A stretch of DNA of 38,059 bases from a virus (IMGVR_UViG_3300025598_000085:1-38059), one strand, 5' to 3'. Positions 759-9,576 are shown, counted from the first letter of the stretch. Notes: generated from the sequence alone by a model not told the origin. Made by a program: numbers and translations.

Positions 759-805
759 TTATCCCCAGATTTGTATTTGCTATAAATTACAATCTGTAGG
801 ATACT
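759..805 (+). promoter_or_regulatory. Promoter with TTATCCCCA upstream box
   Basis: The box TTATCCCCA (759-767) lies 9 bp before TTGCTA (777-782), then a 17-bp spacer and GATACT (800-805) preceded by TG. No ORF starts directly downstream, so it would drive the structured region at 812-930. It is one of six similarly built promoters (others at 930, 3043, 3942, 5615 and 7856). Confidence 0.55.
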
Positions 806-811
806 AAAAAC

Positions 812-930
812 AGATTACGAAAAAGCCAAGAGAGACATTTATATTTTTTAACAAAGCTCTCAATAGTGCTATTAGTAGTCGAGGAACGCTTCGACTTGTT
901 ATTCAAACTCGTCCCTGCGAAATCGCAACT
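812..930 (+). ncRNA. Candidate structured non-coding RNA
   Basis: The stretch between the holin and the next gene has no credible ORF but several hairpins: GAGAG with CTCTC around an A/T loop, AATAG with CTATT, AGTCGA with TCGACT, and TGCGA with TCGCA. It follows a good promoter (777-805). No clear terminator is visible, so it could instead be a leader for the gene at 982. The RNA class is not recognised. Confidence 0.35.
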
Positions 931-975
931 TATCCACTTTCTTCGTTGTGCGGGAGTGGTTTTTTGTTTTATAAT
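930..975 (+). promoter_or_regulatory. Promoter with TTATCCACT box, leaderless for gene at 982
   Basis: The box TTATCCACT (930-938) is followed by TTGTGC (946-951), an 18-bp spacer and TATAAT (970-975). The ATG at 982 begins 6 bp after the -10, where transcription would be expected to start. The promoter at 3942-3989 has the same -35 hexamer and spacer. Confidence 0.65.
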
Positions 976-981
976 AAATTC

Positions 982-1164
982 ATGTTTTCAATTTACCGCG
1001 AGAAAAATGTAAACAAGATACCAGTACCCTGTAGCAAGTGTGGTACAGAAGTAATACGACACTTAACGAATAAACCTGCCGTCTGCTTCAGCTGTAAAAG
1101 AAAAAGACAAGCAGAATGGTACAAAGGATACAAAGAATTAAAAAACAAAATAAAGGAAGTGTAA
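982..1164 (+). CDS. Small zinc-ribbon protein
   Basis: The ATG at 982 is preferred over an in-frame ATG at 946 because a TATAAT box at 970-975 lies between them. The 60-residue product has two Cys-x2-Cys knuckles (CSKC and CFSC) in an otherwise basic chain, as in a zinc ribbon that binds nucleic acid or RNA polymerase. The lysine-rich C-terminus (KGYKELKNKIKEV) supports nucleic-acid contact. It is one of at least eight such tiny proteins in this genome. Function is unknown; a transcription modulator is plausible. Confidence 0.6.
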   Translation: MFSIYREKNVNKIPVPCSKCGTEVIRHLTNKPAVCFSCKRKRQAEWYKGYKELKNKIKEV

Positions 1165-1188
1165 AGAGTAATTTAGGGTAAAATTTGA

Positions 1189-1243
1189 TATAATTTATAT
1201 GTCTAACTACCACCCAGTCGTTTGCAAATAGCTCAAATTTGCA
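1189..1243 (+). promoter_or_regulatory. -10 box, 10-residue leader ORF and hairpin before the transglycosylase
   Basis: TATAAT at 1189-1194 is followed 4 bp later by ATG at 1199, opening a 10-codon ORF (MSNYHPVVCK) that stops at 1231. A 7-bp hairpin (TGCAAAT, 7-base loop, ATTTGCA; 1223-1243) overlaps its end and lies 5 bp before the ATG at 1249. This could couple or limit translation of the transglycosylase. It rests on pairing and position only. Confidence 0.4.
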
Positions 1244-1248
1244 CCCCT

Positions 1249-1674
1249 ATGATACTTTCCAAGAAAATAGCCGTTGTTACCATACTATCGGTACTTGTTA
1301 CCCTGACTATTAACACGGCTTACATAGCAAAAGCTGAATCTCCTGTCATTTCCGTTCCAACAGACGTGAAAGGTCAGATAGCTTACTACGCAACGATGTA
1401 TCAATCTTCCGCAAAGGAACTTCTTACTGTTGCAAAATGTGAAAGTAACTTTGACCCTAAAAGCACTGGTGACCATGGATTAGCCAGAGGAGTATTCCAA
1501 TACCACCCTGACACTTTTTACTGGTACGCTCACCTCTATCACGAGAAATGGGGTGGTGAACCACTACACTACACAAGCACTACAGACCAGATTAAGTTAG
1601 CGTCTTGGATGTTTACTTTAGGGAAAAGTACAAAACAGAACTGGACTTGCTGGTCAAAGCATTACAATGTATAG
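1249..1674 (+). CDS. Secreted lytic transglycosylase (SLT-like)
   Basis: From the ATG at 1249 the protein has 141 residues. It begins with a signal peptide: MILSKK, a hydrophobic stretch (IAVVTILSVLVTLTI) and a likely cleavage site after AYIAKA. The mature part has the hallmark of soluble lytic transglycosylases and goose-type lysozymes: LLTVAKCESNFDP with the catalytic Glu, then GLARGVFQYHPDTFYWYA, and a C-terminal Trp/Cys segment (NWTCWSKHYNV). It would cleave peptidoglycan outside the membrane. Similar short secreted proteins are, from memory, common in patescibacterial genomes; here it may be a second lysis enzyme or an alteration of the host surface. The earlier TTG at 1222 is unlikely as start because the signal peptide fits the ATG. 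Confidence 0.8.
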   Translation: MILSKKIAVVTILSVLVTLTINTAYIAKAESPVISVPTDVKGQIAYYATMYQSSAKELLTVAKCESNFDPKSTGDHGLARGVFQYHPDTFYWYAHLYHEKWGGEPLHYTSTTDQIKLASWMFTLGKSTKQNWTCWSKHYNV

Positions 1675-1718
1675 TATAAACAACGCTTCAAATGCGTGTA
1701 TTACATCCTAGGGTAAAG

Positions 1719-1747
1719 CTCCTCCGTGCACAGGGGGAGTTTTATTA
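1719..1747 (+). terminator. Rho-independent terminator after the transglycosylase
   Basis: CTCCTCC (1719-1725) pairs with GGGGGAG (1733-1739) around a 7-base loop, followed by TTTTATTATT. It would end transcripts from the lysis/transglycosylase side. Confidence 0.75.
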
Positions 1748-1749
1748 TT

Positions 1750-1787
1750 AAAAAACCGCTCACTATCAGGTGGCGGTTGTTTTCTTG
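1750..1787 (-). terminator. Terminator facing the minus-strand genes (probably bidirectional)
   Basis: AACCGC-CAC (1754-1763, one bulged T) pairs with GTGGCGGTT (1770-1778). The A-run at 1750-1755 becomes a U-run for the minus-strand transcript that carries the two genes at 1836-2245. The + side also has a T-rich tail, so it may act in both directions. Confidence 0.65.
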
Positions 1788-1835
1788 CTCGTCTCCATGC
1801 AAGAAAGATTGCAATAAAGAAAGCTGTTATCATGA

Positions 1836-2093
1836 TTAAATTTTTTCAATGTAACGTAGTACTTTCATCAGTTTGTTTTTAGGAAGTGACAGCAGTGCAA
1901 ATTCAGGGTCAATCCATGTTTTTGTTAATTCATGGGCTATTTCCTGTGGTGTCATACATGTGTTTTCTTTAGTTGCAAAGAGGAGGTGATACGCCTCGTG
2001 CTTCCTTTCGTTTACATGTGAAATATTCTCTGGTGCATTAGTGCCACCATGAGAACGCGGTTTTCTGTGGTGCTTATTGGTTCTAGGCTTCAT
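1836..2093 (-). CDS. Small HNH-like protein
   Basis: The 85-residue product starts at 2093 and overlaps the stop of the upstream minus gene by ATGA, so the two are translationally coupled. The N-terminal KHHRKPRSHGGTNAPENI looks like an HNH/Zn-binding beta-beta-alpha core (HH..R.SxGG.N..EN), followed by HVNERKHEAYHLLF and a helical tail ending in RYIEKI. Such short HHR-type proteins occur, from memory, in phages and CPR genomes; nuclease activity is not assured because only part of an HNH domain is visible. With its partner it is the only gene pair on the minus strand. Confidence 0.6.
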   Translation of the reverse strand: MKPRTNKHHRKPRSHGGTNAPENISHVNERKHEAYHLLFATKENTCMTPQEIAHELTKTWIDPEFALLSLPKNKLMKVLRYIEKI

Positions 2094-2245
2094 CTCTCAG
2101 GTTTTGAATGTACTTCAATAGTGTTACCACAATCAAGACAACGACAAGTAATTATCTGCGTTCTGTTTTTCAAGGTAATGCACTCAATGAGTTCACACCA
2201 AGTAAACCGTAGACAAATGGGGCAGAAGATTGGTATTTCATACAT
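2090..2245 (-). CDS. 51-residue Cys-rich (zinc-knuckle) protein
   Basis: A 52-codon frame starts at 2245 on the minus strand (MYEIPIFCPICLRF) and ends at 2090, overlapping the HNH-like start by four bases. It has CPIC and CRCLDCG, a typical pair of zinc knuckles about 25 residues apart. A possible minus-strand promoter lies at 2284-2312. The coupling to the next gene and the conserved-looking Cys spacing support a real gene. The role may be regulation by nucleic-acid binding; no family is recognised. Confidence 0.55.
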   Translation of the reverse strand: MYEIPIFCPICLRFTWCELIECITLKNRTQIITCRCLDCGNTIEVHSKPER

Positions 2246-2283
2246 TGTGTTTATTTAGATGGTGAAAGAATGGTTGTTACTTA

Positions 2284-2312
2284 ATTTTACCATTTTTAGA
2301 CACTTACGTCCA
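2284..2312 (-). promoter_or_regulatory. Possible minus-strand promoter for 2245-1836
   Basis: On the minus strand TGGACG (2312-2307), a 17-bp spacer and TAAAAT (2289-2284) preceded by TGG form an extended -10 promoter. The expected leader before the ATG at 2245 is about 30 nt. Confidence 0.4.
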
Positions 2313-2314
2313 CC

Positions 2315-2407
2315 AAAAAAGACATGACCGCGAAGTCACACCCTTTAAGTTAATTGCAATATATAGTTTTTATTCCACATTGCGGTGGGTTAGTCAGGAT
2401 TAACCTG
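2315..2407 (-). ncRNA. Candidate minus-strand small RNA
   Basis: A minus-strand promoter (TTGCAT 2443-2438, 17-bp spacer, TATGAT 2420-2415) would start an RNA near 2407. The RNA would contain GGTTA/TAACC and CCAC/GTGG hairpins and end at a stem (TGTGAC, TTCGCG loop, GTCATG, two G-U pairs) followed by TCTTTTTT at 2322-2315. There is no ORF. It fills most of the 221-bp gap between the minus genes and ninG. Confidence 0.4.
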
Positions 2408-2414
2408 CATATAT

Positions 2415-2458
2415 ATCATAGCATGTACTGTACAAATATGCAATACGTGTAGTATAAT
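2415..2458. promoter_or_regulatory. Divergent overlapping promoters
   Basis: The minus promoter (ATCATA 2415-2420, ATGCAA 2438-2443 as read on +) interleaves with a plus promoter whose -10 TATAAT is at 2453-2458, with TGTACA at 2430-2435 as the best -35. The plus -10 ends 8 bp before the ninG ATG. RNA polymerase could not occupy both at once. Confidence 0.5.
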
Positions 2459-2466
2459 GTAACCAC

Positions 2467-2958
2467 ATGAAAAGAACTGGATTCCGTAAAAAGACTTTCT
2501 CTGAAATAAAAGAGGCTAAAGCATCAAAGCCCAAGGTAGCTAAAAAGAAACGCACCACGGGGCAAATAAAGCCATTTAAAACGAAATTATGGGAGTGCTG
2601 TAAACAGATAATTCGTCTTAAATACGGAAATACTTGTTACACATGCGGGAAGACTGGTTTGGAAGGAGGAGGCTGGCATACGGGACACTTTATTCCTAGT
2701 TCTGTAGGGGGTCATTCTTTGAGATACTCTTTGGATAATCTACGCCCGCAATGCTATCATTGTAATATCAACTTATCAGGTAACGGTTCACAATTTTACA
2801 GAAACCTTGTAGAACGTGAAGGACAAGAATATGTCGATAACCTATTCAAACTCAAAAATCAACTTATCAAAGCAGACGAACACTGGTACAGGGAAAAAAT
2901 CGCCTCGTATACTTTACTCCTGCAAGAACTGCAAAAAGCAGACAAAGCAAATATATAA
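2467..2958 (+). CDS. ninG: NinG/Rap-like recombination endonuclease
   Basis: The 163-residue protein matches the lambda NinG (Rap) pattern: a basic N-terminus (KRTGFRKKTFSEIKEAKA), then CYTCGK, the WHTGHFIPSS block, SLDNLRPQCYHCNINLSGN and a helical C-terminus. The Cys pairs and His form an HNH-like zinc core. In lambda, NinG works with Red recombination at branched intermediates. Here the partner would be the Erf protein at 6072, about 3 kb downstream. The start is the first ATG, 8 bp after a TATAAT box, so the mRNA would be nearly leaderless. Confidence 0.85.
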   Translation: MKRTGFRKKTFSEIKEAKASKPKVAKKKRTTGQIKPFKTKLWECCKQIIRLKYGNTCYTCGKTGLEGGGWHTGHFIPSSVGGHSLRYSLDNLRPQCYHCNINLSGNGSQFYRNLVEREGQEYVDNLFKLKNQLIKADEHWYREKIASYTLLLQELQKADKANI

Positions 2959-2964
2959 CGGAAC

Positions 2965-2993
2965 TTGTAAATCTTGTTACTTTAGTATATAAT
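2965..2993 (+). promoter_or_regulatory. Promoter directly before a terminator
   Basis: TTGTAA (2965-2970), a 17-bp spacer and TATAAT (2988-2993) make a near-ideal promoter, but a terminator lies at 3012-3036, so a transcript would be only about 35-40 nt unless it reads through. Confidence 0.45.
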
Positions 2994-3011
2994 TAAACAG
3001 ATTAGCTCGAC

Positions 3012-3036
3012 CCACCCGAAAGGGTGGTTTTAGTTT
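3012..3036 (+). terminator. Rho-independent terminator after ninG
   Basis: CCACCC (3012-3017), GAAA tetraloop, GGGTGG (3022-3027), then TTTTAGTTT. Confidence 0.8.
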
Positions 3037-3042
3037 CTAGAG

Positions 3043-3090
3043 TTATCCACAGGTTTACTTGTTGCAAGTTTTTTTCTGTAGGTGTATAAT
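3043..3090 (+). promoter_or_regulatory. Promoter with perfect TTATCCACA box
   Basis: TTATCCACA (3043-3051, identical to the E. coli DnaA box) is followed after 10 bp by TTGCAA (3062-3067), a 17-bp spacer and TATAAT (3085-3090) preceded by TG. It drives the structured RNA starting near 3097. Confidence 0.7.
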
Positions 3091-3096
3091 TATTAT

Positions 3097-3205
3097 GTAG
3101 ATGTTTTATCTACGGCTGTGCCCTTGTCCCAAAGGAATACTCTTTTGGGGGACTCGTCAATGTAGCAATACATTGGTGGTTCAGCCAAAGGAGTTTTTAT
3201 TTTGT
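3097..3205 (+). ncRNA. Structured RNA with a multi-helix junction
   Basis: The RNA begins with hairpin GTAGAT/ATCTAC (3097-3113). GGCTG (3114-3118) then pairs with CAGCC (3182-3186), enclosing two hairpins: GTCCCAAAGGA with TCTTTT..GGGAC (3126-3153, two bulged G) and CAATGTA, GCAA tetraloop, TACATTG (3158-3175). After the closing stem come AAAGGAG, one of the few Shine-Dalgarno-like strings here, and TTTTTATTTTG, which may end the RNA. The remainder of this 487-bp gene-free stretch (to 3445) has further hairpins (CTCTTG/CAAGAG near 3213-3228, CCTAC/GTAGG near 3230-3250, TCTCTTT/AAAGAGA 3309-3326) but no credible ORF. The RNA class is not recognised. Confidence 0.55.
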
Positions 3206-3445
3206 CTAAACAGCTCTTGAAGCAAGAGACCTACGGACATTAAAAGGTAGGGGCATGCTCACAATACGGATACCATATCTCTCGGTAAAGTTAATTTAAT
3301 ATAGAAACTCTCTTTTTATAAAGAGAAACAGTAACTAGAAAAAGATACTACGCACAGATAAAAACTATGCAGATATATCACTTTACTAGAGAATGGAAAA
3401 CGGCTTGTGGTGTTGTTGTTATGTATACACAATAGTAACTACAAT

Positions 3446-3577
3446 ATGAGAGATATACATTACAAAGGAAGAAACATTAGAATGTCAGATGAAACATGGG
3501 AAGATTTAAAAAAGAAAAGACAAAAGTCGAAATTGTCTTGGAACTTATTTATTGTTAATCTGTTAAAGAAAAAATGA
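3446..3577 (+). CDS. 43-residue ribbon-helix-helix-like protein
   Basis: The frame from ATG 3446 gives MRDIHYKGRNIRMSDETW and a helical remainder (EDLKKKRQKSKLSWNLFIVNLL). A short strand with IRMSDETW followed by two helices is the layout of a minimal CopG/Arc-type DNA-binding domain. The stop overlaps the next ATG (ATGA at 3574), which supports translation. It lies directly after the structured-RNA region, so a role as a small repressor of early promoters is plausible but unproven. Confidence 0.55.
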   Translation: MRDIHYKGRNIRMSDETWEDLKKKRQKSKLSWNLFIVNLLKKK

Positions 3578-3813
3578 AAAAACATCGACAACACGAAGAC
3601 ATAGGAATAGGAACTATGTGTAGAAAATGCAATATACCAACAGTCATAAGAAAGAGAACGAAAGTACCTATCCACCAAAACTTTTATTATACTCAATGGG
3701 AATACTGTAAAAAATGCAACGCAGTTTACTTTGAAGAAAAATACAAAAGTAATGACTGGAAAGAACTAGAACATAACGAAAATATGTTTAAGAACAGTTT
3801 ATTTGAAGATTGA
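3574..3813 (+). CDS. Small zinc-ribbon protein
   Basis: The 79-residue product has MCRKCNIPT near residue 15 and EYCKKCNAVYF near residue 43, two Cys-x2-Cys knuckles forming a zinc ribbon, and an acidic tail (ENMFKNSLFED). It overlaps the ribbon-helix-helix gene by four bases, so the two are coupled. The basic segment between the knuckles suggests nucleic-acid binding. No family is recognised. Confidence 0.6.
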   Translation: MKKHRQHEDIGIGTMCRKCNIPTVIRKRTKVPIHQNFYYTQWEYCKKCNAVYFEEKYKSNDWKELEHNENMFKNSLFED

Positions 3814-3842
3814 TTTATTAGTTATTTAATAGATAAGAAAGT

Positions 3843-3941
3843 ATGAACGAACAAAACTGTTTATTTGAAGGGTACGAAGAAATTAAACCATTGCTTAGAA
3901 TCGGAAACCTAATGGTAGGAAAGTTACTTTTGATAAATTAG
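3843..3941 (+). CDS. Possible 32-residue protein
   Basis: A 33-codon frame starts at 3843 (MNEQNCLFEGYEEIKPLL) and ends at 3941. Its NCLFEGYEE resembles the tail NSLFED of the preceding gene, which may mean a common origin or chance. Its stop codon abuts a TTATCCACA box. The short length leaves it uncertain. Confidence 0.35.
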   Translation: MNEQNCLFEGYEEIKPLLRIGNLMVGKLLLIN

Positions 3942-3989
3942 TTATCCACAATTTTATATTTGTGCTCTTGTTAATTTTTATAGTATAAT
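3942..3989 (+). promoter_or_regulatory. Promoter with perfect TTATCCACA box for the initiator gene
   Basis: TTATCCACA (3942-3950), 9 bp, TTGTGC (3960-3965), 18-bp spacer, TATAAT (3984-3989). Transcription would start near 3996, giving a leader of about 106 nt before the ATG at 4102. Confidence 0.65.
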
Positions 3990-3995
3990 GTTATA

Positions 3996-4101
3996 TACAG
4001 GTTCGATACCTGTACTTTTAACAATTAGCCTTACATCGTTTAGTATCTCTCTCACTCACTTGTAAGGCGGGTGGGGGAGAGACTAAACGGAAAATTATTA
4101 T
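3996..4101 (+). promoter_or_regulatory. Structured leader with predicted pseudoknot before the initiator gene
   Basis: The leader opens with hairpin TACAGGT/ACCTGTA (3996-4014). Then CGTTTAGT (4037-4044) and CTCTCTC (4047-4053) pair with GGGAGAG-type sequence 4075-4081 and ACTAAACG (4082-4089), a 15-bp stem with a 2-base bulge and one T-G pair. The loop of that stem holds TGTAAGGC (4061-4068), perfectly complementary over 8 bp to GCCTTACA (4028-4035) upstream of the stem. The two pairings either form a pseudoknot or compete. The element ends 12 bp before the start codon, so it could gate expression of the replication gene. Confidence 0.6.
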
Positions 4102-4857
4102 ATGGAGATTAGGGATAACCGCCAAAAAGAATGGTTTTGGCTCGATAATGAGTATTTAAACGGTTATGCACGCATTTTGGGTGTTTACTGTACAGCAGTT
4201 TATATAAGTCTTTGTAGACACGCTGATAATAAAACACAAACTTGTTTTCCAAGTATGAAACTTATTGCTGAAGAAAATTCAATGAGTACAAAAACAGTAG
4301 AGCGTGCAACAAAAACTTTAGAGGAATGGGGAATAGTAAAAGTAGAAAGAAGTAAAAAAGAAGATGGTACACAAGCAAATAATATTTACACATTGACATC
4401 AAAAAGATATTGGAAAAAGAAACCGACAGACTCACAGTCTATCGGTATCCAACAGACTCTTAGTCTAGAACCGACAGACTTTGACGACGAAAACCGACAG
4501 ACTCCAGTACTACATAACAATACTCATATTAACAATACTCAATTAACAATACAGGCGAAACAAGTTTCGCAAGAAATACCATTAGTCATAAAAGAGTTTG
4601 AAAAGGTAAATAAAGCATGTGCAGACTTTTATGGAAATACTACACAAAGAAAAGCACTTCAGAAACTTATAGATGCTTATGGATATGAAAAAGTAATGAA
4701 TGTTGTAAGTTATCTTCCAAAATTAAATAGAATACTTTATAACAAAGCAACTACACCAGTAGAACTTTGGAATAAATGGGCAAAAATAGAGGCAGAGGCT
4801 TCAAAATTAAAAGATACTAAATTAAATTCAAAATATGCAATCACAACAACATATTAA
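4102..4857 (+). CDS. Replication initiator-like winged-helix protein
   Basis: The 251-residue protein carries an N-terminal winged helix-turn-helix of the HTH_36/phage replication-protein type: GVYCTAVYISLCRHAD, CFPSMKLIAEE, STKTVERATKTLEEWG and a wing ending in NNIYTLT (residues about 25-105). A low-complexity linker follows, then a helical C-terminal domain (FEKVNKACADFYG to NKWAKIEAE). Such proteins load host helicase or initiate replication at an origin within or near their own gene. The direct and inverted ACCGACAGACT-like strings at about 4420-4505 lie in the linker and could be origin iterons. The upstream leader is structured and a TTATCCACA box lies 150 bp away. Confidence 0.7.
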   Translation: MEIRDNRQKEWFWLDNEYLNGYARILGVYCTAVYISLCRHADNKTQTCFPSMKLIAEENSMSTKTVERATKTLEEWGIVKVERSKKEDGTQANNIYTLTSKRYWKKKPTDSQSIGIQQTLSLEPTDFDDENRQTPVLHNNTHINNTQLTIQAKQVSQEIPLVIKEFEKVNKACADFYGNTTQRKALQKLIDAYGYEKVMNVVSYLPKLNRILYNKATTPVELWNKWAKIEAEASKLKDTKLNSKYAITTTY

Positions 4858-5143
4858 GTGGTACAAAATTACTAGAAGAGGTGCTGAGGCAATTTATATA
4901 GAACAGGAAAGATTAGAAAAAATAATGACTGACCCACAACAACTTATTAAATTTTTTGAAACGGATGGCGAATGGCGTGTCTTTAACAAAGCGGATATTG
5001 TAGATGCAGTTTATGATAAAGAATATTCAATGAAAAGAAACGAACCAAAATATGAGTATTATAAAAATAAAGAAAAAGGAACAATAGTAAAATTACTTGT
5101 TGGTCAGTTATTAGATAACCCATCTAAATACGAAAAAGTTTAG
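4835..5143 (+). CDS. Hypothetical early protein
   Basis: The 102-residue frame from ATG 4835 overlaps the initiator gene by 23 bp. The N-terminus (MQSQQHIKWYKITRRGAEA) reads like protein, so the early start is preferred; an in-frame ATG at 4925 (MTDPQQLIKFFE) is the alternative. It is charged, with WRVFNKADIVDAVYDKEYS and a basic/helical C-terminus, and has no known motif. Its position behind the initiator suggests a replication accessory role. Confidence 0.55.
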   Translation: MQSQQHIKWYKITRRGAEAIYIEQERLEKIMTDPQQLIKFFETDGEWRVFNKADIVDAVYDKEYSMKRNEPKYEYYKNKEKGTIVKLLVGQLLDNPSKYEKV

Positions 5144-5151
5144 AAAAAAGT

Positions 5152-5325
5152 ATGAAATGTAAAAAATGCGGAGCGGTAACAAAAAATAATGATGGAAGTG
5201 GAAACTGTCTTGTATGTGTCAGTATTCTAAAAATGGTAGAAATATTTGAAACCACATTAAACATGCCAAACATAAACGGACAAGTTAGAAAAGTTAAATT
5301 ATCAGTAAATATTAAAAAGGTATGA
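5152..5325 (+). CDS. 57-residue zinc-ribbon protein
   Basis: The frame from ATG 5152 begins MKCKKCGAVTKNNDGSGNC and continues LVCVSILKMVE, giving CKKC and NCLVC knuckles close together, like the zinc finger of many phage early proteins. The C-terminal half is basic. The stop overlaps the ATG of the next gene (ATGA at 5322). Function is unknown. Confidence 0.6.
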   Translation: MKCKKCGAVTKNNDGSGNCLVCVSILKMVEIFETTLNMPNINGQVRKVKLSVNIKKV

Positions 5326-5585
5326 AAAAATACATGATAAGTGAATTGTGGGGCAGTTTATTTAATGATGACTTAGAATTTGAGGCAAAAAATAAACAAG
5401 ATGCAATCAAGCAATATCTAAAGAAAAAAGGTTTTGAGAATGTAAAAGTAGTTTATGATTCAATTAATAATCGTGTCTATTCTTCTGCCAGGGTAATTGC
5501 TGTTCAAGAGGGATGGTATGAAAAAGAAAAAAATACAACACATATTCAAGGCAATAGAGGATTTTATAAAATAGTGAGTATTTGA
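5322..5585 (+). CDS. Hypothetical early protein
   Basis: An 87-residue, mixed alpha/beta protein (MKKYMISELWGSLFNDDLEF, then DAIKQYLKKKGFENVKVVYD). It is coupled by a four-base overlap to the zinc-ribbon gene before it and ends about 80 bp before the next ATG. The gap holds a TTATCAACA box and a promoter. No family is recognised. Confidence 0.55.
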   Translation: MKKYMISELWGSLFNDDLEFEAKNKQDAIKQYLKKKGFENVKVVYDSINNRVYSSARVIAVQEGWYEKEKNTTHIQGNRGFYKIVSI

Positions 5586-5614
5586 CATATCATGTACTTT
5601 ATTACATTACAAAG

Positions 5615-5660
5615 TTATCAACAGTTTTCTTCTTGCAAAGATGAGTGCATGATATATACT
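5615..5660 (+). promoter_or_regulatory. Promoter with TTATCAACA box, leaderless for gene at 5667
   Basis: TTATCAACA (5615-5623), 9 bp, TTGCAA (5633-5638), 16-bp spacer, TATACT (5655-5660). The ATG at 5667 begins 6 bp after the -10. Confidence 0.65.
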
Positions 5661-5684
5661 AAAACCATGAACGAGCTAATCAAC
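5648..5684 (+). repeat. Promoter/start repeat, copy A
   Basis: The 13-mer CATGATATATACT (5648-5660) and the 12-mer GAGCTAATCAAC (5673-5684) recur at 7887-7899 and 7911-7922 with almost the same spacing (12 versus 11 bp). Here they form the -10 and the first codons of the gene at 5667. Confidence 0.75.
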
Positions 5685-5912
5685 GTTCTACAAACATTTA
5701 TGAAAGACATTTCACATGAAGTAGTAGACAACTACCAAGAACATGAATTGCACGGCAACAGTCCACGAGACTGGGAAAAGAACAAAGCAACATGTTCAAC
5801 CTGTTTCAAGAATTATCAACACCACAATGAATTTTTAATGCCATCAGCACAACGACACAGTTTTGAAATCCGAATGGCGGAAATAAACCTAGGTGGTAAT
5901 CCTGAATTTTAA
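5667..5912 (+). CDS. Small Cys/His protein
   Basis: The start at 5667 is chosen over the in-frame ATG at 5592 because a strong promoter (5633-5660) ends just before it. The 81-residue product (MNELINVLQTFMKDISHEVV) has TCSTCFKNYQHH, a possible half zinc knuckle with nearby His residues. It precedes the Erf gene by two genes, so it may belong to the recombination operon. Function is unknown. Confidence 0.6.
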   Translation: MNELINVLQTFMKDISHEVVDNYQEHELHGNSPRDWEKNKATCSTCFKNYQHHNEFLMPSAQRHSFEIRMAEINLGGNPEF

Positions 5913-5916
5913 TTAT

Positions 5917-6069
5917 ATGAATAAACAACAAGCATTAGACTTTGTGAACATTGCCCTGAAAAAGATGTTAGATAAGCAAGATGAAGGTTTAATAATTTCT
6001 GAAACAATTATGACAGAGATTTTTAATGAGATGATAGATGAATTATCAGAAACTAAAGAAGTAGAATAA
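5917..6069 (+). CDS. 50-residue acidic helical protein
   Basis: From ATG 5917: MNKQQALDFVNIALKKMLDK followed by an acidic helical tail ending in KEVE. It sits 4 bp after one gene and 2 bp before erf, with the TTATATG start context typical of this genome. No family is recognised; its position in the recombination operon is the only clue. Confidence 0.5.
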   Translation: MNKQQALDFVNIALKKMLDKQDEGLIISETIMTEIFNEMIDELSETKEVE

Positions 6070-6071
6070 TT

Positions 6072-6518
6072 ATGAAAGAAATCGCAAAAGCATTATCAGT
6101 ATTCCATGAAGAAATGGGTACTGTACAGAAAGACGCAAACAATCCATTTTTCAAATCAAAGTACGCACCACTAGAAACAATCTTGCCAGCCATTAAAGAA
6201 CCTTTGAAGAAAGCAGGTTTGGTATTTACACAAGCACCAAGTCACCTACATTCATTCGAGGGTACAATGGTGCACATTGTTCCAGCATTAAAAACAACAA
6301 TTATTCACATTGAAAGCGGAGAAAAAATAGAAGAAACCACACAACTTCTTCTAGTAAAACAAGACCCACAAGGACAAGGTAGTGCAATCACTTACATGAG
6401 ACGCTACATGCTTGTATCAATGCTTGGACTAAACTGTGATGAAGATGATGACGGAAACAAAGCAAGTGGAAAGAAAGATTATTCAAAAGTAACTAATGAA
6501 GATATTAACTTCGATTAA
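6072..6518 (+). CDS. erf: Erf-family single-strand annealing protein
   Basis: The 148-residue protein has the diagnostic Erf features: FHEEMGTVQKDANNPFFKSK, YAPLETILPAIKEPLKKAGL and, after a beta region, GSAITYMRRYMLVSMLGL followed by an acidic tail (NCDEDDDGNKASG). Erf proteins form rings that anneal complementary single strands during phage recombination and genome circularisation. That fits a genome assembled as a circle. It is encoded with a small basic gene 3 bp downstream and with ninG in the same early region. Confidence 0.9.
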   Translation: MKEIAKALSVFHEEMGTVQKDANNPFFKSKYAPLETILPAIKEPLKKAGLVFTQAPSHLHSFEGTMVHIVPALKTTIIHIESGEKIEETTQLLLVKQDPQGQGSAITYMRRYMLVSMLGLNCDEDDDGNKASGKKDYSKVTNEDINFD

Positions 6519-6521
6519 CAT

Positions 6522-6770
6522 ATGGCAGAAAACATTTTTGCAGACGGAATTTCATTTAAGAAACCACGAGAAGGAGCACCAGAATTTATTAAAGGTTCTA
6601 TCTCAATCCTAGTAGACAAATTAATTCCTTTCTTGAAACAACATCAAGACGAGAACGGTTGGGTCAATTTAGATTTAAAAAGAAGCAAGGAAAAAGGCAC
6701 GCTTTATCTATCCTTGAACACTTACAAAAAGCCTCCCGTAATTTCTCCTAACGATACACCTTTTGATTAG
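6522..6770 (+). CDS. Conserved-looking small protein next to Erf
   Basis: The 82-residue protein begins MAENIFADGISFKKPREGAP and continues with FIKGSISILVDKLIPFLKQH and GWVNLDLKRSKEKGTLYLSL. The alternating beta pattern and position just after erf recall small OB-like or single-strand-binding accessory proteins, but no family is certain. It ends one base before the next ATG. The start is the only ATG near the operon spacing. Confidence 0.6.
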   Translation: MAENIFADGISFKKPREGAPEFIKGSISILVDKLIPFLKQHQDENGWVNLDLKRSKEKGTLYLSLNTYKKPPVISPNDTPFD

Positions 6771-6771
6771 T

Positions 6772-7104
6772 ATGAAACAGGTGAAAAAACGCACCGAAAA
6801 ACAAAACAGAAGTTTCCACAAAGGCTTTACTGATATTAGTAACATCCTTATAGAAAACGGAGTTTCACTTAACGCAGTAATTAAAAACCTAGAAATCCGC
6901 CCTACACCAGAATCAGTCAAAGAAATCTATAAGGCAATAGCATACTCAAAATACGGTGTTAAAAGCACTACAGAGCTTACTACAAGCCAAATAGACCCTG
7001 TATGGGAGGATTTAATCAAGGCTATATCAATAGCAACAGGCGTTTATATAGTTTTCCCTAGTGAAGAAAACAGAGAAGCATATATTAACAGTTTAGATAA
7101 TTAA
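6772..7104 (+). CDS. NinB-like phage recombination-region protein
   Basis: The ATG at 6772 gives 110 residues. KKRTEKQNRSFHKGFTDIS, RPTPESVKEIYKAIAYSKYG and the block KSTTELTTSQIDPVWEDL match a widespread phage family usually found in recombination modules and sometimes compared with NinB/Orf. The conserved KQNR near the N-terminus and the VYIVFPS ending support this. The product may load recombinases or bind single strands together with Erf and NinG. The family link is from memory, so the functional name is tentative. Confidence 0.6.
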   Translation: MKQVKKRTEKQNRSFHKGFTDISNILIENGVSLNAVIKNLEIRPTPESVKEIYKAIAYSKYGVKSTTELTTSQIDPVWEDLIKAISIATGVYIVFPSEENREAYINSLDN

Positions 7105-7108
7105 AATT

Positions 7109-7291
7109 ATGGAATCACCATTTGTTTTTGGAAATAAAACAGTAAATGTAAATTGTGAACGACATGGAAACAATCTTCCAAGTTTGGAATATTCAGTACA
7201 CGATAATGTATTCATCAGAGTATGTTTCATGTGTTACGCAGAAAAACAGACACAGGGATTAGTAAATCACGCAAAAAATACTACCAACTAA
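7109..7291 (+). CDS. 60-residue Cys/His protein
   Basis: MESPFVFGNKTVNVNCERHG opens the protein; later VCFMCYAEKQTQGL gives a Cys-x2-Cys pair and NCERH a Cys/His pair, together a likely zinc site. It follows the NinB-like gene by 4 bp with the AATTATG start context. It ends just before a strongly structured RNA region (7301-7412). Function is unknown. Confidence 0.5.
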   Translation: MESPFVFGNKTVNVNCERHGNNLPSLEYSVHDNVFIRVCFMCYAEKQTQGLVNHAKNTTN

Positions 7292-7300
7292 CGACACTTC

Positions 7301-7412
7301 CTGTGTCCAACACTGGACTAGTAATAGAGCAAGCTGAATGGCACGCAAAGCAGTTTCATCCGAAACGAAAGGCGACCCTTTGGTACTCTATCAAGTCTAG
7401 TGTTGGGCATGG
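7301..7412 (+). ncRNA. Structured RNA with a roughly 25-bp closing helix
   Basis: Bases 7301-7319 pair with 7394-7412 without interruption (19 bp, several G-U pairs; core CCAACACT with AGTGTTGG). After a small internal loop ATAGAG (7324-7329) pairs with CTCTAT (7386-7391). The 56-base terminal region holds GTTTC/GAAAC with a 4-base loop and AAAGG/CCTTT. The element lies exactly in the gap between two genes and is not convincingly coding. An imperfect helix of this length with G-U pairs is a strong sign of selection for RNA structure. No known class is recognised. No separate promoter or terminator was seen, so it may be processed from the operon mRNA. Confidence 0.65.
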
Positions 7413-7422
7413 GAACAACAAT

Positions 7423-7701
7423 ATGCAACTGCGTACAATCAAACTCAGAAAACTAAAAAACCAACTAGACACAACACTTAAACAAATCCCCCAAGCAAAC
7501 CAAGTAGAATACCGCTACAGAACACTAAGAAAAACACTACAAGAAATCTACCCTAACCTTATAGGTAACACATCTAAAGAAACCATGCTTGAATTTCTAC
7601 AGGACGCAGTTTATTTAGATAGATTGTTACGCAGAAAAACAACAGGCAAACAAACAACTTTAAAAAGTAAACTGGCAAAAGACTTTGTTAAACATTTATG
7701 A
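7423..7701 (+). CDS. Hypothetical basic helical protein
   Basis: The ATG at 7423 is chosen because the frame upstream runs through the structured RNA and overlaps the previous gene. The 92-residue product is basic and helical (MQLRTIKLRKLKNQLDTTLK), with EFLQDAVYLDRLLRRKT in the second half, a pattern seen in short phage early proteins. The stop overlaps the next ATG by four bases. Function is unknown. Confidence 0.55.
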   Translation: MQLRTIKLRKLKNQLDTTLKQIPQANQVEYRYRTLRKTLQEIYPNLIGNTSKETMLEFLQDAVYLDRLLRRKTTGKQTTLKSKLAKDFVKHL

Positions 7702-7868
7702 ATAAACGCTCCAAGTACAACAAAGGAAAACAAAAGTGTATTTACATAAACCCCATAAACCAAGAAAGACTGCAACCACTCCTTATGGGAAAAAGCCTTG
7801 GTAAAGAGTTAGTAAAAACATACCTAGAGAAACATGGCTTAGAATATTATGAGGCTGTGGATAAGTAG
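7698..7868 (+). CDS. 56-residue basic protein
   Basis: From ATG 7698 (ATGA overlap with the previous stop): MNKRSKYNKGKQKCIYINPI, then GKSLGKELVKTYLEKHGLEY. It is a small basic protein whose C-terminal codons (VDK) overlap an inverted TTATCCACA box at 7856-7864. No family is recognised. Confidence 0.5.
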   Translation: MNKRSKYNKGKQKCIYINPINQERLQPLLMGKSLGKELVKTYLEKHGLEYYEAVDK

Positions 7869-7899
7869 GGATTGTATCCTACTGTACATGATATATACT
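7856..7899 (+). promoter_or_regulatory. Promoter with inverted TTATCCACA box
   Basis: TGTGGATAA (7856-7864, the reverse complement of TTATCCACA), 7 bp, TTGTAT (7872-7877), 16-bp spacer, TATACT (7894-7899). The RNA start near 7906 is followed by hairpin AACAAG/CTTGTT (7906-7927), so the gene at 7952 has a leader of about 45 nt. Confidence 0.6.
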
Positions 7900-7922
7900 A
7901 TTAACAACAAGAGCTAATCAAC
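7887..7922 (+). repeat. Promoter/start repeat, copy B
   Basis: CATGATATATACT (7887-7899) and GAGCTAATCAAC (7911-7922) repeat 5648-5684. Here the ATG equivalent is lost and the second block lies in a leader hairpin. Confidence 0.75.
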
Positions 7923-7951: not shown

Positions 7952-8380
7952 ATGACATACGAACTTGCTAAGAAATTGAAGGATGCGGGGTTTCCCCAAA
8001 CTTATCTTAAATCAGATCCAGTAATGGACTTTGCTTATTACGACAAGACTCAAAAACTGCATTTATTGCACACTGACAACGATACGGGTTGGTGGATCGG
8101 AAATGAATATGGGGAATATGCCGATCTGAATGAGGAGTATGTCATCGCGAATTTCACAAAGTGTCCGACCCTTTCAGAACTCATTGAAGCGTGCGGAAAT
8201 GAATTTGACTCACTCACTCGTGATACTGAAGTAAATTTAACGACAGGCGAAGAAAAAACTATTTGGAAAGCTAAACCAGAAAATGCAATACCATCTAACC
8301 TTGGAGCGATAAGTTGTTTTATTGGATACACCGCAGATGAAGCTGTCGCCCATTTATGGCTAGCATTAGATGAAAAATAA
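7952..8380 (+). CDS. Conserved phage protein of unknown function
   Basis: The 142-residue protein starts MTYELAKKLKDAGFPQ, has TLSELIEACGNEFDSL in the middle and ends with YTADEAVAHLWLALDEK. This combination is, from memory, common in phage and prophage genes of unknown role. The aromatic-rich segment WWIGNEYGEYADLNEEY resembles a small beta-sheet. It has its own promoter (7872-7899) and a 45-nt leader, so it may be regulated apart from the genes before it. Confidence 0.65.
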   Translation: MTYELAKKLKDAGFPQTYLKSDPVMDFAYYDKTQKLHLLHTDNDTGWWIGNEYGEYADLNEEYVIANFTKCPTLSELIEACGNEFDSLTRDTEVNLTTGEEKTIWKAKPENAIPSNLGAISCFIGYTADEAVAHLWLALDEK

Positions 8381-9078: not shown

Positions 9079-9253
9079 AAACATTTGTACAGGATGCGGT
9101 AAAGAGTTTAATTTCATTCTTCCTGTTGGAATTTGCTCAAACTGTTTAGATTATGAGAGACATCACAAAAAAATCGCACGTTTGATTAGTAATGAAAAGA
9201 AAAACATTGGATTTGAAGTTGGGCAAGAAAAGCCAGATTTGGTCGATGTTTGA
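9071..9253 (+). CDS. 60-residue zinc-finger protein
   Basis: MNKNICTGCGKEFNFILPVG then ICSNCLDYERHHKKI gives two Cys-x2-Cys knuckles 15 residues apart, a compact zinc ribbon. The stop codon overlaps the TTG that opens the HNH-AP2 frame at 9250, so the C-terminus may have been replaced when the HNH gene inserted. Nucleic-acid binding is likely; the target is unknown. Confidence 0.55.
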   Translation: MNKNICTGCGKEFNFILPVGICSNCLDYERHHKKIARLISNEKKNIGFEVGQEKPDLVDV

Positions 9254-9576
9254 TTGCAGAAACATATATTCCAAATCCAAATAATTTTACTCGAGTAGAC
9301 CATATAAATTGCGATGCTTCTGATAATAGGATTGAAAATATTAGATGGTGTAATCTGCAAGGAAATAATGCAAACAAACCTAAAAGAAAAGGAAATTGGT
9401 CATCAAAGTACAAGGGCGTATCTTGGGATAAATTACAAAAAAAATGGGCTGTACATACTTCCCTTTATCATAAATCAAAGACGGAGGGTCGTTTCGACAA
9501 TGAAATCGAAGCCGCGAAATACTATGATAAACGAGCAAAAGAACTCTACGGAGAATTTGCACACACAAACTTTTAA
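9250..9576 (+). pseudogene. 5'-truncated HNH homing endonuclease with AP2 domain
   Basis: The frame reads LIAETYIPNPNNF, VDHINCDASDNRIENIRW, the core of an HNH_3 domain, then SSKYKGVSWDKLQKKWAVH to GEFAHTNF, a complete AP2-type DNA-binding domain. Intact members have a longer N-terminus with a NUMOD4 or similar region and an HR pair before LIAETY; here the frame is open only from 9217 and has no ATG before the core, just a TTG at 9250. It may be a degraded free-standing homing endonuclease, or a short form translated by coupling from the zinc-finger gene. Confidence 0.7.

Follow-up and report, generated by a model that had tools for sequence, protein, structure and literature searches.

That DnaA acts as a transcription factor, in phage lambda as well as in bacteria, is established. 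The DnaA boxes of lambda lie downstream of the pR promoter, with a contact to the beta subunit, whereas the box described here lies upstream of the -35 element. The zone just upstream of a -35 is the normal place of UP elements and of activators that touch the alpha C-terminal domain or sigma region 4. In the DnaA-regulated promoters of bacteria (E. coli nrdAB; Caulobacter ftsZ, mipZ and gcrA; B. subtilis sda), a DnaA box is found in the promoter region, as is the case here. These known bacterial cases are individual chromosomal genes, whereas the phage box recurs at near-fixed spacing, at several to about ten promoters per phage.

DnaA reportedly activates the ftsZ gene of Caulobacter and also acts at lambda, and at nrdAB it activates or represses according to its level and nucleotide (PMC8203912). 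In lambda transcription and at oriLambda, host DnaA acts on the early and replication transcription of a phage (PMC8203912), and the same is proposed for the promoters considered below. A small literature search in open-access sources, with subscription journals mostly outside it, turned up no account of phage promoters that form a recurrent class marked by a DnaA box upstream.

The window, meaning the whole stretch of DNA analysed, comprises 38,059 bases of a virus with a GC content of 38%. Its gene order runs from a lysozyme at the left end through a NinG-like HNH protein and an HTH_36 replication initiator to an ERF recombinase, and the terminase is encoded from 12,446 onward. An ORF near 9250-9576 in the early region, an assignment that is the author's reading, matches the HNH_3 and AP2 domains and is probably a homing-endonuclease-like gene. 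A search of phage GenBank for an annotated near relative of the window found none close; in IMG/VR, terminase relatives at 60-72% identity are common. Terminase relatives (57-62% identity) are also present in two metagenome-assembled genomes (MAGs) of 0.8-1.0 Mb, and in the phylum of one of these all 380 of the 380 sampled genomes measure 0.4-2.0 Mb. Because of this range of genome sizes, the hosts of window-type phages are probably Patescibacteria, a deduction made through phage contigs in MAGs that are possibly mis-binned.

Candidate box promoters in the window

The preliminary description of this DNA placed a DnaA-box-like element directly upstream of six promoters, and a box was located at each of the six positions:

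759..805, + strand: box promoter 1; TTATCCCCA at 759-767, 9 bp, TTGCTA, 17 bp, GATACT at 800-805
930..975, + strand: box promoter 2, doubtful; TTATCCACT at 930-938, 7 bp, TTGTGC, 18 bp, TATAAT at 970-975
3043..3090, + strand: box promoter 3; AG-TTATCCACA-G at 3043-3051, 10 bp, TTGCAA, 17 bp, TATAAT at 3085-3090
3942..3989, + strand: box promoter 4; AG-TTATCCACA at 3942-3950, TTGTGC, 18 bp spacer, TATAAT at 3984-3989
5615..5660, + strand: box promoter 5; AG-TTATCAACA-G at 5615-5623, 9 bp, TTGCAA, 16 bp, TATACT at 5655-5660
7856..7900, + strand: box promoter 6; inverted box TGTGGATAA at 7856-7864, 7 bp, TTGTAT, 16 bp, TATACT

The distances from box end to -10 given in that description were reproduced by script at 31 bp (930), 33 bp (3043 and 3942), 31 bp (5615) and 29 bp (7856, inverted), and for 759 the figure is 32 bp provided that its weak -10 is GATACT at 800. 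Each of the six also has the TTGnnn -35 at 16-18 bp attributed to it, the spacers being 17, 18, 17, 18, 16 and 16 bp, and the four promoters said to be free of the box (2453, 2965, 10075 and 16784) do lack it. Exact TTATCCACA, the standard bacterial DnaA box, occurs four times in the window; three of the copies are at box promoters and the other one (35742) is not. An exact search of the window for TTATCCACA-N26..30-TNTATAAT found nothing because the bases preceding the -10 vary.

Boxes with one mismatch are common in the window (18 against 12.5 expected) and the box at 930 is explicable as part of a terminator stem, so that chance or sequence composition has to be considered as the source of the arrangement. 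Its probability is negligible. A strict pattern, consisting of a box with at most one mismatch in either orientation, 6-10 bp, TTG, 16-18 bp and a TATAAT-like -10, is present at five sites in the window, with 7-10 bp between box and -35, against 0.067 on average, and 1 at most, in 300 dinucleotide shuffles, in agreement with the original view that the arrangement is unlikely by chance. Together with the relatives described below, the shuffles refute chance for the set.

The individual sites were scored with a model built from 29 box promoters of relatives, the window excluded, and compared with 100 shuffles of the window. The top five forward sites of the window are 3043, 5615, 3942, 759 and 930, and the top inverted site is 7856; apart from 930, all exceed the shuffle maxima (22.6 forward, 24.0 inverted). 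Promoter 3043, which has an exact box, reaches the highest score in the window (36.2), promoter 5615 scores 34.6 and promoter 3942, also with an exact box, scores 26.0, the trained model favouring a shifted -35 with a 16 bp spacer at this site. Promoter 759 scores 23.9, and its box, TTATCCCCA, is seen again at promoters of related phages. The inverted-model score of promoter 7856 is 29.0, and its box falls within the last codons of the upstream ORF. Promoter 930 scores 17.6, with about 0.3 sites expected at 16 or above, and the CCACT of its box is the 5' arm in the stem of an intrinsic terminator (CCACTTTC...GGGAGTGG followed by TTTTTT). It is counted as doubtful because its score lies within the shuffle range and its box overlaps this stem. 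Of the six box promoters first described, the other five are thus well supported at the sequence level.

The genes and RNAs that follow, including a replication initiator, nucleases, small ORFs of unknown function and a structured RNA, fit the early class to which these promoters had been assigned. The features directly downstream in the window are:

3092..3275, + strand: predicted structured non-coding RNA, downstream of promoter 3043 (MFE -61.4 kcal/mol, z -4.9; ends approximate)
4102..4857, + strand: replication initiation protein, HTH_36, O-like/DnaD-like, first gene after promoter 3942
5667..5912, + strand: small ORF of 81 aa, ATG 6 nt past the -10 of promoter 5615, predicted leaderless
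7952..8380, + strand: ORF of 142 aa, unknown function, first gene after promoter 7856

The product of 4102..4857 matches Pfam HTH_36 (7.7e-13) and PHROG replication initiation (3.3e-15). The RNA at 3092-3275 had no Rfam match and no clear homologue among the fetched relatives, and the 81 aa ORF had no match in PHROG. A short non-coding transcript is also predicted at 806-968, from promoter 759 to an intrinsic terminator, its fold being unremarkable apart from the terminator (z -0.39). The leader of the initiator gene (3990-4101; z -6.6) contains a hairpin resembling a T-arm, ACAGG-TTCGATA-CCTGT, together with a long stem (about 20 bp) that ends just upstream of the gene; the structure is a possible origin, regulatory or tRNA-mimic element.

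Recurrence in related phages and across IMG/VR

The preliminary description would have been refuted by a lack of excess of the box in relatives, but the excess there is strong and sharply positioned. Within 30 bp upstream of the -35, the commonest 6-mers in 168 strict promoters drawn from terminase and NinG relatives are TCCACA (22 promoters), TATCCA (19) and TTATCC (19); in the next 30 bp upstream they are found at 2, 2 and 0 promoters. De novo analysis of 156 unique promoters, the window's included, returned TATCCACAG or TTATCCACA in a random-seed motif search and AAGTTATCCACAG as a 13-column motif model, and the most conserved positions of the motif are the C residues of TCCAC. When relatives only were considered, with relaxed -10s, 22 exact boxes lay 6-11 bp upstream of the -35 and 0-2 in each of the other 3-bp bins, while five inverted exact boxes lay 3-8 bp from the -35. 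Reversed-letter box controls in the relatives gave 0.

Single phages can carry many such promoters: phage G434 (L408) has about ten, on both strands, and phage G455 (L409) has five. Genes directly downstream of the relatives' box promoters include an exonuclease, a Cas4-like exonuclease and an HTH_36 replication initiator, the last of which follows a box promoter in L412 just as the initiator follows 3942 in the window. ERF relatives (L081-L160) have few boxes and no positional peak, and phages that have one early gene in common therefore do not all carry the element. In relatives, an ATG exactly 6 nt past the -10, which implies leaderless mRNAs, is found at 9 of 29 box promoters and 15 of 136 non-box promoters; loci with this spacing are L408, L409, L411 and L412, and in the window it occurs at 5655-5667 and 970-982.

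These observations bear on two readings in which no activator is involved. UP elements of sigma-70 promoters also lie immediately upstream of the -35, a zone that the box overlaps, and the 9-mer could accordingly be a UP-like contact for RNA polymerase, one of the options first offered beside an activator and host DnaA. UP elements, however, are A/T tracts, whereas the phage element is a specific 9-mer in which C residues are the most conserved, and it also occurs inverted; a UP-like contact is very improbable. The boxes might instead serve DNA replication or DnaA titration, the promoters being bystanders; the boxes do occupy the early/replication region, and the initiator gene follows one of them. 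Neither titration nor an origin needs a fixed spacing of 7-10 bp that is conserved between phages, however, nor boxes at up to ten promoters per genome on both strands, and the DnaA boxes of the window show no clustering. This role is improbable.

Beyond the relatives, the pattern TTATCCACA-N6..10-TTG-N19..22-TATAAT has at least 120 matches in IMG/VR, and among the matches listed AG precedes the box, the gap is 8-9 bp and the spacer 17 bp, none of which is imposed by the pattern. A reversed-box control over the full IMG/VR gave 71 matches, from which the AG flank was absent; the forward, shifted-gap and open-gap scans each gave at least 120, only the reversed-box 71 is complete, and the totals are not comparable. 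With the gap left open at 4-34 bp, 28 of the 57 non-coding, AG-flanked sites among the matches listed have a gap of 7-10 bp, 1 of 57 has 13-16 bp and 10 of 57 have 17-21 bp, a distribution in small numbers that suggests helical phasing. The minor second group at 17-21 bp, seen among the matches listed once coding matches had been removed, is treated as a lead. An apparent peak at 18 bp in the shifted-gap control, again among the matches listed, was set aside, as it consists partly of homologous coding sequences.

The probable protein at the box

The 9-mer is probably, on balance, a site from which host DnaA activates early phage transcription from upstream. From the options first offered, host DnaA is favoured: the motif is that of the standard DnaA box, and among 23 box-bearing virus records, of which many are fragments, none matched Bac_DnaA_C, the DnaA DNA-binding domain, with controls positive in 10 of 14 genomes. 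Two groups of the IMG/VR matches correspond to Streptococcus suis prophages and to prophages of S. pyogenes and its relatives, and the presence of TTATCCACA in streptococcal prophages too is expected because the protein is conserved across bacteria.

A phage-encoded regulator with DnaA-like specificity would be a different binder of the box, and the HTH_36 initiator or a small ORF could supply it; the initiator gene directly follows promoter 3942, and a similar one follows a box promoter in L412. Such a regulator is nevertheless rather unlikely. The site has the sequence of the bacterial DnaA box, a 9-mer that is not a palindrome, none of the 23 virus records encodes the DnaA C-terminal domain, and the same 9-mer is found in unrelated phages, since only 19 of 120 loci among the matches listed share any protein with the window.

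If host DnaA is the binder, a monomer of it would occupy the box, about 8 bp away from the -35 on the upstream side; with a transcription start some 7 nt past the -10, the centre of the box falls near -49. The bound protein would touch RNA polymerase through the alpha C-terminal domain or sigma region 4 and recruit the host enzyme to early phage promoters, raising early transcription, and early expression would thereby sense the level or nucleotide state of DnaA. The site, its spacing, its recurrence in phages both related and unrelated and its gene context are observed in the sequences; DnaA as the binder, activation over repression and the sensing of DnaA state are what we infer from them. 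The -35 elements at the box promoters are not degenerate, and the need for activation is therefore not obvious.

The most serious rival is that host DnaA represses or times these promoters, for example by holding early genes down at high ATP-DnaA. DnaA does both activate and repress nrdAB, by level and nucleotide (PMC8203912). The phage box, however, is usually single and lies upstream of the -35 and not over the core promoter, which is the usual place of an activator, and a repressing or timing role is considered unlikely.

Should activation by host DnaA hold, many phages would have in this protein a general activator of transcription, and early phage expression would be tied to the host replication cycle. 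The arrangement would also provide a simple sequence rule, searchable in any phage genome, and an initial look at how promoters are regulated in phages of small-genome bacteria (probably Patescibacteria), for which little regulation is known. In part of the small-genome group, DnaA control of ftsZ would be predicted.

Host genomes and ftsZ

Across 380 genomes of the inferred host phylum, the exact architecture has 43 matches and a version with a 10-bp shift in the gap has 20, which is only about a twofold difference. In the host genomes of one order, the box-to-TATAAT distance shows no clear concentration, and the element is therefore not a general host promoter feature. Four of the 20 examined phylum loci with the architecture are ftsZ promoters, and with a fifth ftsZ the box architecture is found in 5 of 7 genomes of one order; at the ftsZ loci of this order (L393-L396, L418-L421, L423), the DnaA box lies 7 bp before the -35. 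In an alignment of three of these promoters, the box, the TTG and the TATAA core are conserved and most other positions vary. Elsewhere in the phylum, ftsZ is mostly without the element.

Caulobacter ftsZ is a DnaA target, and the ftsZ of this one order has the phage arrangement; the conserved box suggests DnaA control of cell division in that order. Some hosts thus use the arrangement at a cell-cycle gene, and the phages use it far more densely. As a tentative extension, the phage promoters may form a widespread class in which a lone DnaA box, set 8-9 bp or a further helical turn ahead of the -35, reads the replication state of distant hosts, as DnaA level or ATP-DnaA, for early genes, with a borrowed architecture that is in use at ftsZ in some hosts.

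With the host of the window itself being deduced, the gap between dnaA and dnaN contains TTATCAACA and TTATCCACA in MAG G002, which carries a terminase relative; MAG G001 has no near-perfect cluster. The TTATCAACA of the G002 gap is the variant present at promoter 5615. In two genomes of the host phylum (L391 and L392), the same box promoter precedes a D-alanyl-D-alanine carboxypeptidase-like gene.
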